Of a DNA stretch of 64,000 nt, positions 53,306 to 57,717 are shown one piece after another. How positions within the stretch are numbered: the stretch's first letter is position 1; every line of letters starts with the position of its first letter. The stretch spans positions 268,792-332,791 of the forward strand of contig LEKQ01000001.1 of the NCBI GenBank assembly GCA_001443005.1, read 5' to 3'. This DNA comes from a bacterium GBS-1. GTDB lineage: Bacteria > Synergistota > GBS-1. Position numbers and translations under genes: made by a program. Under the pieces are notes generated by a model. That model worked only from the letters and a program-made list of their open reading frames with translations, ran no database searches and was not told the origin of the DNA.

Positions 53306-54427
53306 TCACCTCCCCAACTTGGTCTTTATAAACTCGTACCAACTTCTGGCATCTTCAGCTATAGCTAAACTATCATAAACCCCCTCTTTCCCCTCTAAAG
53401 AGTAAATATAAAGGGATAGCCCATGAGAAGATCTAAATATACCATTCGTAGGATGCCATTCATATAAAACTGCTTCTTTTATAGATTTCTTAAGGCTCTC
53501 AATCTTCTTCTTGGTAGATTCTCCAACGTTCAAACTTCCTATTTTCTCACAAAAGTCATATAGGTCTTTAAAGCAAGGGGATTCCCCCGGACTTATAAAG
53601 TAAGGCTGGACTTGAGCTATAACCATCCAAAGGGCAAGCGTATCGTTAAAATTTAAAAGATCGGTGCCAAGATCGTCTAAGCACGTTAAAAGGTTTGAGA
53701 GCTTCGCCAAAGAAATTACAGATATGGCCACATCGTTCCTCTGAGAGTATAGGTTCTTAAAGCTATCAAAGAAATATGAGCCAAAATTTGTAGATCCACA
53801 ACTAGGATTTTTTACTACCTTACTCAATATCTCTTCATAATCAAAACCATCATCAGGCATCACTCCCTGAAGAGCAACGACAACGGAAGCATAGTTTTTA
53901 ACTTCATCGAGAAGCTCAAGCTCAGCTTTAGCTGACGAATCGAAGACGAGCAGATCTATCTTTGAACTAAGTGATGAAAAGGCTTTAACGAGGTTAACCC
54001 ATTCCACCATACCTTCCCAAATGTCTTTATGCCCCCTCTCCCACAATATAAGGGCATACTTCTCCGCTGAATAATTCTCAACGCACCAGTTAAACAAGGA
54101 GAGAAGCGCTTCAGAAGAGGTTGAAGAAGCATCTGGAAGAACATCCAGGAGCTTAAGGTTTCCTTTCTCCACAAGATAACGAACCATCCCACGCCCCGTT
54201 TCCGAAACTCGCTGCACTATAATCTTAACATGGTCAGTCGAACCAACCCTTCTCATCTCATAGATATCTATACCTGCAAGCTCCCTAGCATTAACGTCAG
54301 AATCATTCATGAATACAACAATCGTCCATTCAGGAAGCCCAGACCAAGATCCCCCTCCCCCATCACCACATCCATAAAGAAAGATCATATGTAAGAGCAA
54401 GGCTACAAAACAAAATCGCTTTACCAT
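53306..54427 (-). CDS. Lipoprotein with catalytically dead clostripain-like (C11) fold
   Basis: A 373-residue protein from ATG 54427. The start carries a lipobox, VALLLHMIFLYGC (Cys20), so it is a lipoprotein. The rest follows C11 peptidases (WTIVVFMNDSDVNA, YALILWERGHKD, IDLLVFDSSAKAELE). The active-site His of the WDHG motif is Arg131 and the catalytic Cys of DACLM is Ser165, so it should not cleave. It overlaps the intact C11 gene by 7 bases. It is probably a binding or regulatory partner of that protease; this is inference. Confidence 0.8.
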   Translation of the reverse strand: MVKRFCFVALLLHMIFLYGCGDGGGGSWSGLPEWTIVVFMNDSDVNARELAGIDIYEMRRVGSTDHVKIIVQRVSETGRGMVRYLVEKGNLKLLDVLPDASSTSSEALLSLFNWCVENYSAEKYALILWERGHKDIWEGMVEWVNLVKAFSSLSSKIDLLVFDSSAKAELELLDEVKNYASVVVALQGVMPDDGFDYEEILSKVVKNPSCGSTNFGSYFFDSFKNLYSQRNDVAISVISLAKLSNLLTCLDDLGTDLLNFNDTLALWMVIAQVQPYFISPGESPCFKDLYDFCEKIGSLNVGESTKKKIESLKKSIKEAVLYEWHPTNGIFRSSHGLSLYIYSLEGKEGVYDSLAIAEDARSWYEFIKTKLGR

Positions 54428-56367
54428 TTCCTCACCCCCAGGACGATAAGCCATCCAACAGAAAGCAATATAAGAACACTTAGACTACCACCATTTGAAA
54501 CAGAACACCCCGATGAGGCAATAAACTCATCATCATCGTCATCTCCATCTCCACTGCTACTTAACTTCAATCCCCCGTACATCAAGGGCTCTAAGCGAGG
54601 AGGAATATATATCGTAGGAACTTGCTCACTCCAATCCATCGACATAAGTTGAGGATATTCTCCAACAAAGGAGGAGCTTTTCCCATCATACACTTGAACA
54701 TAATAGCCTATAAGATCACCGGCCTTGAAGGGGAACCTGCTTCCCATCGGAATCCCCACTTCGATTTCAAGGTAATTGTTAGCGCTCACCTTACCCTCGA
54801 TTTTGATCTCCCTACAAAGTATGGGATCTAAGGAACGCACCCTATACTCAGAGTAGTCATACCATAAAGGATAGAAATAAGCTAACCAACTCCTTCCATC
54901 ATAAAGTATCCTGAGCATACCCTCACTTTGAGTCCTATCACTAGGGAAGGAAAAGCTCCTATCGGAATCTAAGTAAATAATGATCGAATCCCCCACATCC
55001 AAGGAATTATCCGCATAGATTCTAAAAGCCATATAGAGACTGGACTGATTATTCTTTGCAAAAAGAGCGAAAGAGGTGATTTCTTGGGAAGTTATCACCG
55101 CAGCATTTTTAACTTCACTATCGCTTATTACTCCATTTATCTCCATTTCTCCCCAAGCTACACTTATAATCTCCTGGGTTTCCCTCAAATAGGTCTTTAG
55201 AAACTCATTCCATTTAGTAAAACTGGGGAAATCATGTCTAGGGTCGTCGTAAAATCTGTCATAGCTTCCTTCTCCCCTGTCGGGGAAATATATGCTTAAG
55301 CCATAACTATTACCATCTCTCGAGTAATTATCTACTACCGCACCCTTGATAGATTCGCACAAAGAGGAGGCAAGTTCCGAAATAGGGCTCTTCCATCCAG
55401 CGAGAAACGCGGAAAAGGAATAAAGATCCATTATGGAGGAATCAAAAAACTTGGTAGCTTGCCTCCGCGCAAGCTTAGCTAGGGATATGTTATCCTTCAG
55501 CTTATCAGAAAGCTCCCTTAGAAGGGAAGTCATATCATCTATTCTGCGAAGATCTATTAAAGAAAGGGTTTTCCCCGAAGTTTCCTTATAGCTCTCTATC
55601 ATCAGCTTACCCAAATCCTTTGGAGAAACATCTCCTTGTCTAAGAAGGCTAACTAAATCTGTTAAGAACAAGTCGTATCTAAATCCCTCTCCTGGCACCA
55701 AATCTTCTGAAGCTACCATGTAAGAAGCAAAATCCTTAAGCTCATAGGCAACCTCAACCATACCCATAAGACAAGCATCAAAAACTATGATGTCTATTTT
55801 ATACCCCTTATCCTTCAAGATCCTAAGAGCAGTTTGCAACTCATCCATATACAGATAGTCACCGCTTGTCTCATCATAACCCGCGATTTTCCAAGAGCTT
55901 CTCCGTCCTTTATTAATTGTCCTCCAACCATCACCATGATCCCAAATTATAAGAGCGTAATGATTGGCAGGATATCTATCCATAGCCCAAGAAACGAAGT
56001 CCACCAACGCTTCAGCGCTTCCCATATTAACCTCACCTAGGTTTTGAACTGCGTTATTCGAGAAGGGGGCTAGAAGAGGAGATAAAACGAACCTCATGGT
56101 CCCTGCCCAGTCATCCCAATACCCCTCTCGCGCTGAAGCATAACCCGGGACTCTGTCAAGCTGAACCAAAACTTTTAGGGTGGAATCGGCAGATCCTGGA
56201 AGAGGAGCACTAACCATCTCTATGAAGTCTACCAAGGCTTCTTCCTCAAGGTTATTATCAGCATTCATAAAAACCATAATCGTCCAAGAAGAAGCAAGGA
56301 CAGGGCCTGAAAGCGTAAAGGTAAAAGAGAGAAAAACCAAAAGACCAATAGATAAAAAGCTACGCAT
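54421..56367 (-). CDS. Clostripain-like (C11) cysteine protease with C-terminal sorting signal
   Basis: A 648-residue exported protease: signal peptide (1-25), C11 catalytic domain (about 27-390) with His144 in YALIIWDHGDGW and Cys199 in IDIIVFDACLMGMVE. A beta-rich domain of unknown type follows (about 395-600, DSEVKNAAVITSQEITSFAL). An Asp-rich stretch (DDDDDEF) leads to the tail SSGCSVSNGGSLSVLILL and basic VRKW end, resembling SYNERG-CTERM. Such signals target proteins to the envelope. It should cleave after basic residues like clostripain, not shown here. Confidence 0.88.
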   Translation of the reverse strand: MRSFLSIGLLVFLSFTFTLSGPVLASSWTIMVFMNADNNLEEEALVDFIEMVSAPLPGSADSTLKVLVQLDRVPGYASAREGYWDDWAGTMRFVLSPLLAPFSNNAVQNLGEVNMGSAEALVDFVSWAMDRYPANHYALIIWDHGDGWRTINKGRRSSWKIAGYDETSGDYLYMDELQTALRILKDKGYKIDIIVFDACLMGMVEVAYELKDFASYMVASEDLVPGEGFRYDLFLTDLVSLLRQGDVSPKDLGKLMIESYKETSGKTLSLIDLRRIDDMTSLLRELSDKLKDNISLAKLARRQATKFFDSSIMDLYSFSAFLAGWKSPISELASSLCESIKGAVVDNYSRDGNSYGLSIYFPDRGEGSYDRFYDDPRHDFPSFTKWNEFLKTYLRETQEIISVAWGEMEINGVISDSEVKNAAVITSQEITSFALFAKNNQSSLYMAFRIYADNSLDVGDSIIIYLDSDRSFSFPSDRTQSEGMLRILYDGRSWLAYFYPLWYDYSEYRVRSLDPILCREIKIEGKVSANNYLEIEVGIPMGSRFPFKAGDLIGYYVQVYDGKSSSFVGEYPQLMSMDWSEQVPTIYIPPRLEPLMYGGLKLSSSGDGDDDDDEFIASSGCSVSNGGSLSVLILLSVGWLIVLGVRKW

Positions 56368-57103
56368 TAGCCTTCCTCCTTATAAGAGAACAAAGCAGAA
56401 TTAGAGGGGGCAACATCAATAGAAGGGTAAGGCTCCCATTTCCAACTGAGCATCCTGCACTAAGGTAGATTTCCCCCTCCTTGGAGCCTGTTTTAACCTC
56501 TACCTCACTAGAGGAGGTCCTTCCAGCATCATTAAAAGCTAACACCCTATAAGTATATTTGGTATTCTCCGAAAGCCCCTCATCAATATAACTATTGGAG
56601 TTGGGAGGAAGAACAGCAATCTCAAGCCAATTATTGCCCAATTTCCTTTCGACTATAAAACCAAGCTCGTTATCAGACTCATCAGTCCATTCCAATTCTA
56701 TTTCAGAAGAGGAAAGAGCCCTCCCCTTTAAGTTAGAGGGAGGCTCTGGATAACCTATAGTGGTAACAGGGGAAGAAAGCTCACAGTAGTCAGTGTAATA
56801 GCTGCCCATATAAGCCCTAACCCTATAATAGTAACTCCTTCCAGGCACAAGCCCTTCATCGTTATACACATTTACATCAGGTGGAACTATAGCTATCTGT
56901 TTCCAAGCCTCACCATAAGCCCTTCTCTCAACTATAAAACCATCCTCATCTACTGAGTTATCCCACCAAGTCAACCTTATATGAGTGGGAGATATTATCT
57001 GAGCCTCTAAATGGGAAGGCGGAAGAGGAAGAGATAAAGCGGAAGAAGCTAAAACAATTATCAAGAAACCTAAAATGAAAAATAAAAAAGCACCCCTTTT
57101 CAC
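56360..57103 (-). CDS. Surface protein with two FN3 domains and sorting-like C-terminus
   Basis: A 247-residue protein: signal peptide (1-27), two fibronectin type III domains (about 28-115 and 120-212; note RLTWWDNSVDEDGFIVERRA and ELEWTDESDNELGFIVERKL), then the tail SAGCSVGNGSLTLLL and basic IRRKANA end. The tail copies that of the neighbouring C11 protease. FN3 repeats bind proteins or glycans. It overlaps the protease by 8 bases and the TPR gene by 4 bases. Confidence 0.85.
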   Translation of the reverse strand: MKRGAFLFFILGFLIIVLASSALSLPLPPSHLEAQIISPTHIRLTWWDNSVDEDGFIVERRAYGEAWKQIAIVPPDVNVYNDEGLVPGRSYYYRVRAYMGSYYTDYCELSSPVTTIGYPEPPSNLKGRALSSSEIELEWTDESDNELGFIVERKLGNNWLEIAVLPPNSNSYIDEGLSENTKYTYRVLAFNDAGRTSSSEVEVKTGSKEGEIYLSAGCSVGNGSLTLLLMLPPLILLCSLIRRKANA

Positions 57104-57717
57104 CTTTTCTTCCTCCTAACCTGATCTAAGAGATATTTGGCTACCTTATCCTCCTTATCCAAGCTCAAGGCCCTCTCAAGATACCACTCAGCTTTTTCGT
57201 AATAACCAAGCTCAAAAGCTACCCTCCCAGCCCAAAGATAGGCCTTTTGAAAATTTGGATTAAGAGCACAAGCTTTCTCATACAAGCTAAGAGCCCTCTC
57301 CTTATCCCCCTTAGAGTAAAACCTATATGCTTCCTCATAAGCCTCAAAAGGTTCCTTTCCTTGCTTTACCACCTCCTCGCACACCTTTACAAAGTACCTG
57401 GCGACCTTATCCTCAGGTTGGACCTCAAGCAGCCTCTGCCAAGTGGCTAAAGCCTCACGATACAATCCAAGCTCCTGATAAAGCCTAGCTAACCAATACA
57501 ACGCTTTCTTATGCGCAGGGTTTCTCTCCAAAACTATTTTATAAAACTTGATAGCCATATCATATTGGCCTTCCTGATAATAGTTATAAGCACCCTCAAA
57601 ATATCTTTCGGTGACAAGCTCTTCTATGTTATCAGACTCCTGAACCTGAGCTATAGCTAAAGAAAACGCACATATCAAAAAACCAAACATAAGGAGAGAA
57701 AATCCCAAAGTACGCAT
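57100..57717 (-). CDS. Exported TPR-repeat protein
   Basis: A 205-residue protein with a signal peptide (1-23) and four or five tetratricopeptide repeats (NYYQEGQYDMAIKFYKIVLE, ALYWLARLYQELGLYREALA, AYRFYSKGDKERALSLYEKA, AYLWAGRVAFELGYYEKAEW). It is an exported scaffold and the first gene of the FN3-C11-pseudoC11 cassette. TPR proteins hold complexes together; the partner is probably one of these proteases. Confidence 0.85.
   Translation of the reverse strand: MRTLGFSLLMFGFLICAFSLAIAQVQESDNIEELVTERYFEGAYNYYQEGQYDMAIKFYKIVLERNPAHKKALYWLARLYQELGLYREALATWQRLLEVQPEDKVARYFVKVCEEVVKQGKEPFEAYEEAYRFYSKGDKERALSLYEKACALNPNFQKAYLWAGRVAFELGYYEKAEWYLERALSLDKEDKVAKYLLDQVRRKKR

Follow-up and report, generated by a model that had tools for sequence, protein, structure and literature searches.

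Why would a bacterium keep a catalytically dead protease homologue directly beside an intact one, with export signals on both? This question is raised by four genes of a GBS-1 bacterium (Synergistota), a member of a family that forms a small, deep-branching bacterial lineage. The genes lie in a window of 64,000 nucleotides (assembly GCA_001443005.1, contig LEKQ01000001.1, forward-strand positions 268,792 to 332,791) and are transcribed from the minus strand, from 57717 to 53306. In order of transcription, they encode an exported tetratricopeptide repeat (TPR) protein, a fibronectin type III (FN3) protein, an intact peptidase of clostripain family C11 and a lipoprotein with the C11 fold that lacks the catalytic dyad, here termed pseudo-C11. 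The cassette is a real and conserved combination. The initial annotation had called it a system without described counterpart. As far as searched, this holds for the combination. It does not hold for the kinds of components: clan CD pseudoproteases as well as Cys-containing CTERM tags with CPBP sorting proteases have been described (PMC6426788, PMC11980579), and no new category arises. The reading favoured here, with a probability of roughly 0.45, is that the cassette encodes a lipid-anchored, probably surface-displayed Arg/Lys protease module of the envelope with a lipoprotein pseudoprotease as partner.

Pseudo-C11 (373 amino acids (aa); 53306 to 54427, minus strand) matches the Pfam family Peptidase_C11 (PF03415) with E 1.4e-24 and 87.8 bits (cut-off 25.8). 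Its AlphaFold2 model is a confident C11 fold with a pLDDT (predicted local distance difference test) of 90.8, and the best PDB matches are the C11 zymogen 6mzo (Foldseek E 3.0e-19) and clostripain 9cip. The catalytic His position is occupied by Arg131 (codon 54035 to 54037) and the catalytic Cys position by Ser165 (codon 53933 to 53935), just as the initial annotation had proposed. Numbering follows the MVKRF start; a longer open reading frame with an ATG begins at 54454. Arg and Ser are found in 4 of 4 orthologues, and none of these homologues keeps His and Cys. In all four, the two dyad positions are 34 residues apart, compared with 46 to 119 residues in 83 C11 proteins that have recognisable motifs at both positions. 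This means that the zymogen-activation loop has been deleted, and relative to the neighbouring C11, 21 residues are missing from the active-site region. Judged by its sequence, pseudo-C11 has lost chemistry as well as activation.

This loss is not a sign of decay. Nonsynonymous divergence (pN) amounts to 0.21-0.30 for pseudo-C11 and 0.20-0.27 for the active C11, and synonymous sites are near saturation. A pN far below the near-saturated synonymous value and similar to the one measured for the active C11 indicates purifying selection. With four constrained orthologues, decay was ruled out, and by its pattern of substitution pseudo-C11 is a retained pseudoenzyme rather than debris. In phylogenetic trees, the four proteins group together at the end of a single long stem, and a sister relation with the neighbouring C11 is compatible with the approximately unbiased test (p-AU 0.134). 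The common stem implies that the dyad was lost before the family diversified and rules out a recent tandem duplication. Two further features are conserved in 4 of 4 copies. One is the Asp of the DSS motif that precedes the nucleophile position and corresponds to the S1 residue Asp177 of PmC11 (PMC4850288). The other is the stretch ALQGxMPDDGFxYE, whose aligned counterpart in the active C11 is VASEDLVPGEGFRYD. At the N-terminus, MVKRFCFVALLLHMIFLYGC forms a signal of the lipoprotein type; its lipobox Cys at residue 20 (LYGC; 54368 to 54370) is present in all four orthologues, and an Lgt gene was found in all four family genomes.

The comparison covered 61 genomes of the phylum, four from the family (three genera) and 57 others. 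All four cassette genes occur in the same order in each of the four family genomes, so that the adjacency noticed at first in one genome extends to three genera. As stated initially, successive frames overlap by 4 to 8 bases (4, 8 and 7), and the frames overlap or abut in the three other genomes as well. Pseudo-C11 orthologues are confined to the family. No orthologue was detected in the 57 other genomes, where a single marginal match (E 9e-4) concerns a plain C11 domain. The four copies are 54-68% identical to each other, and 59-62% when compared with that of the window. Within the phylum, the FN3 protein is likewise restricted to the family (61-70% identity) apart from one marginal match with E 8e-4. 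The TPR orthologues of the four genomes are 62-76% identical.

The intact peptidase (648 aa; 54421 to 56367, minus strand) is composed of a signal peptide, the catalytic domain, a beta-sandwich domain and a C-terminal CTERM tail. It matches PF03415 with E 7.1e-51 and 174.3 bits at the same cut-off, and resembles clostripain 9cip in sequence (phmmer E 2.4e-21) and structure (Foldseek E 2.6e-23). The predicted dyad, His144 (WDHGDGW; codon 55936 to 55938) and Cys199 (DACLMG; codon 55771 to 55773), had been named correctly in the initial annotation and is conserved in 4 of 4 aligned orthologues. The loop after His144 contains basic residues (RTINKGRRSS). C11 zymogens are cut at Lys147 in PmC11 (PMC4850288) and at Lys137 and Lys144 in globupain (PMC10315481). 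We infer that the enzyme cleaves after Arg or Lys and processes itself as a zymogen. The beta-sandwich domain (54682 to 55170) has no match in Pfam, and assignment to CBM9 by this route was abandoned. A weak structural likeness to the CBM9 domain 1i82 remains (Foldseek probability 1.00, E 3.5e-3, target-normalised template modelling score (TM) 0.41, over a low-confidence stretch). The same genome (G000) encodes a second C11 peptidase of 729 aa (L001/L023; contig 9, 24500-26690) with a CTERM tail, a choice-of-anchor D domain and a similar beta-sandwich region, whose gene adjoins a prepilin-like gene. C11 copies of comparable length (732-745-codon frames) are present in the three other family genomes.

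The FN3 protein (247 aa; 56360 to 57103, minus strand) has two fn3 repeats (PF00041, E 1.9e-17) and ends in the same kind of tail as the active C11, as had been noted at the outset. Its tail (SAGCSVGNGS, hydrophobic helix, RRK; 56369 to 56473) and that of the C11 peptidase (SSGCSVSNGGS, helix, RKW; 54424 to 54528) are built alike: an invariant Gly-Cys is followed by a hydrophobic helix and then by a basic end. Matching tails are found in the orthologues. Gly-Cys is invariant across 18 tails. A first profile was built from the cassette tails and the second-C11 tail. It matches the C11 tail and, as a member of its training set, the FN3 tail with E 7.8e-17. Outside this set, it found a 262-aa protein in this genome and a tannase-like esterase in the family genome G003, each with E 3.4e-5. 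The esterase (L056; contig 74) is of subtype B (581.9 bits, cut-off 300), has the same CTERM tail and is probably served by the sorting enzyme as well. With a second-round profile, to which the C11 tail again responds and the FN3 tail matches with E 5.3e-14, clients were counted at E < 1e-9. Exactly four proteins of the genome were obtained: the C11 peptidase, the FN3 protein, the second C11 on contig 9 and the 262-aa protein. All four belong to the training set of this round, and the count informs on the lack of further matches.

Which enzyme could process these tails? The genome encodes one Rce1/CPBP protein (PF02517; L024, contig 7, 522-1076). It carries the motifs EExxxR and HxxxN, by which the catalytic centre is defined in MrtX (PMC11980579). 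The early idea of a sorting tail is thereby supported, the sole CPBP/Rce1-like enzyme being a myxosortase-family protease. It passes Mrt_core (NF040914) marginally, with 101.5 bits at a cut-off of 100, and no other model. The MrtS equivalog model gives 94.5 bits (cut-off 130), and the MrtP, MrtC, MrtX and MrtJ cut-offs are not reached either. Two members of a different family in the phylum carry MrtS with 248-251 bits, which is in line with placement in Synergistota. The enzyme is also present in two other family genomes, scoring 84.5 and 95.8 bits on Mrt_core, below the cut-off, and was not seen in the incomplete one (77%). The enzyme and these orthologues (L028, L029) appear to constitute an uncatalogued myxosortase branch that lies close to MrtS and MrtP and has a tail type of its own. 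Membership of the tails in Synerg-CTERM (TIGR04564) was ruled out by cut-offs: the best scores were 14.9 bits for whole proteins and 12.5 bits in a six-frame scan (cut-off 22.5), and the two cassette tails were unmatched. The C11 tail resembles JDVT-CTERM weakly (17.4 bits, cut-off 27). An invariant Cys, a hydrophobic helix, a basic C-terminus and a co-occurring CPBP protease are the traits by which Cys-containing CTERM tags are recognised, and all of them are found here. A sortase, exosortase or rhombosortase reading was dropped once the sole CPBP protease had been identified as a myxosortase; sortases and rhombosortase were not directly searched. In the MrtX/TraA system, cleavage and anchoring were demonstrated and lipidation was proposed; cleavage of TraA requires the Cys of its MYXO-CTERM tag, which is thought to be lipidated beforehand (PMC11980579). 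As TraA cleavage depends on this presumably lipidated Cys, the C11 peptidase and the FN3 protein are likely lipid-anchored products, too.

From these parts, the following mechanism can be envisaged, the first steps of which are modelled on known families. Sec would export both the C11 peptidase and the FN3 protein, which would be held by their C-terminal helices. Their tail Cys would be lipidated and the tail cut by the myxosortase, leaving both proteins lipid-anchored together. The zymogen would then cleave itself at a basic residue of the RTINKGRRSS loop, and the activated enzyme might act on proteins near or on the surface, with the CBM9-like domain perhaps tethering it to a glycan. Pseudo-C11 would use the usual pathway of N-terminal lipoproteins to arrive in this same envelope. 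Able neither to cut nor to be activated, it would most likely bind the active enzyme and either hold it inactive or stabilise it, as pseudo-caspases do. The TPR protein might serve as periplasmic scaffold; it comprises 205 aa (57100 to 57717, minus strand), with a signal peptide followed by TPRs (TPR_19 E 1.3e-18, TPR_2 E 2e-18).

That the two C11 proteins pair directly is suggested by analogy. cFLIP-L, a dead clan CD homologue, is the dimerisation partner of caspase-8 (PMC6426788). Furthermore, the globupain zymogen is a homodimer (PMC10315481), which makes a C11-C11 contact possible. A more specific proposal is a dedicated pair at the cell surface: the pseudo-clostripain, as a lipoprotein, would regulate or target its active neighbour, which would be placed there by an uncatalogued myxosortase branch that serves only about four proteins. 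Such an exclusive relation is conceivable, though on balance rather unlikely. If true, it would to our knowledge provide the first C11 pseudoprotease regulator.

The cassette is embedded in conserved surroundings. Upstream, DksA-like and gltX genes run on the opposite strand. Four bases downstream lies a homoserine dehydrogenase-like gene in the orientation of the cassette, and its end is overlapped by an NTPase-like gene; these names rest on reading the sequence, not on family searches. Around the cassette, sites resembling promoters or terminators are no more frequent than in shuffled sequence, and the transcript may therefore continue into the housekeeping genes. In one genome, the DksA-like gene is separated from the cassette by a FAD-linked oxidase-like gene (L022, 2275-3606), which is located upstream of the four genes and not among them.

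Several points weigh against a partnership of the two C11 proteins at the surface. The flanking genes are as syntenic as the cassette in the same genomes. Adjacency is therefore weak evidence of joint function, the surrounding housekeeping genes sharing the conserved order. The sample consists of four genomes of the family only. The tree puts pseudo-C11 on its long stem at an unsure place and does not group it closely with the neighbouring C11. For PmC11, a monomeric state has been described (PMC4850288). The outer-membrane step is unsupported: the single secretin of the genome sits in a type IV pilus cluster (pilM-pilN-pilO-pilQ, pilB, pilT, pilC), no separate type II secretin was found, and type II secretion as surface route was rejected on these grounds. 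Finally, the authors of the work on pseudo-orthocaspases expect no regulation of active copies by most of the prokaryotic ones and consider an independent role likelier (PMC6426788).

Some of these points speak for another reading, according to which pseudo-C11 is a standalone binding protein of the envelope, a receptor for a peptide or another ligand that merely shares an operon with the active enzyme. The separate stem, a synteny that by itself accounts for the adjacency and the independence attributed to pseudo-orthocaspases all fit this role, and so do the DSS Asp and the ALQGxMPDDGFxYE stretch kept in every copy. It is at odds with the overlapping reading frames and with the strict company that pseudo-C11, the active C11 and the FN3 protein with its tail keep in 4 of 4 family genomes. 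This explanation must be taken seriously even if it is probably not the right one.

Alternatively, the active protease might cut or bind pseudo-C11 at the envelope, as its first substrate or as a decoy. A precedent exists in the cascade of trypanosome metacaspases, where TbMC4 is processed by TbMC3 (PMC6426788), and both C11 proteins are predicted to reach the same envelope. However, pseudo-C11 lacks the very loop at which C11 zymogens are cleaved, and such a cascade appears improbable.

Still less probable is an ordinary exoprotease operon for nutrient scavenging, in which the C11 copies would be paralogues without special relation. Many C11 enzymes are plain secreted proteases. In four Elusimicrobiota loci (L078, L079, L080, L083), two or three intact C11 genes lie close together, and no dead/active pair was found among these tandem loci. 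This view is difficult to reconcile with a dead copy kept under constraint across genera.

Continued activity of pseudo-C11, with Ser165 as nucleophile and the His two residues past Arg131 as base, is very unlikely: although this His (WERGH) occurs in 3 of 4 orthologues, where automatic alignment shifts it into the catalytic column, and Armatimonadota C11 proteins combine a Ser in place of Cys with an intact His, it is absent from the fourth copy (WSRDE, in G001), falls into a shortened, less confident loop (pLDDT 67-76) and belongs to a protein from which 21 active-site-region residues are gone.

Substituted C11 proteins are also found elsewhere. Six Armatimonadota loci (L074, L075, L088, L091, L100, L102) encode one C11 protein each in which Cys is replaced by Ser and His is retained, and in two Bradyrhizobium species (L128, L139) the Cys of one C11 protein per locus is replaced by Gly. 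From their residues, these are likely further C11 pseudoproteases. Clan CD pseudoproteases are known chiefly from caspases, metacaspases and orthocaspases, and a literature search among open-licence full texts yielded no paper that names a pseudoprotease in family C11.

With a dead C11 kept beside an active one in all four family genomes, regulation of bacterial clostripain-like proteases becomes directly testable using two small soluble domains. Likewise, one myxosortase with about four clients would be a compact natural system to ask which enzyme lipidates Cys-containing CTERM tags.

Compared with the clostripain family C11 of clan CD (PF03415; 9cip, PmC11 3uws, globupain), the active copy shares the fold, the dyad, the basic residues of the activation loop and the signal peptide. 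It differs by the additional CBM9-like domain and the Cys-containing CTERM tail, and pseudo-C11 by the absence of both dyad and activation loop. As in MrtX/MYXO-CTERM, MrtS/Synerg-CTERM and MrtJ/JDVT-CTERM, a single CPBP protease with EExxxR and HxxxN is present, and the putative clients have an N-terminal signal, an invariant Cys after Gly, a helix and a basic end. In contrast to these systems, the protease passes Mrt_core alone, the tails remain under all CTERM cut-offs and the genome contains about four clients. Among the clan CD pseudoproteases, pseudo-orthocaspases, cFLIP-L and TbMC4 are likewise dead homologues alongside active ones, and YS pseudo-orthocaspases have the same replacement of Cys by Ser at the nucleophile position. 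Pseudo-C11 is set apart from them by its affiliation to family C11 instead of C14, its lipoprotein nature, its location in the gene cluster of the active copy and the replacement of His by Arg.

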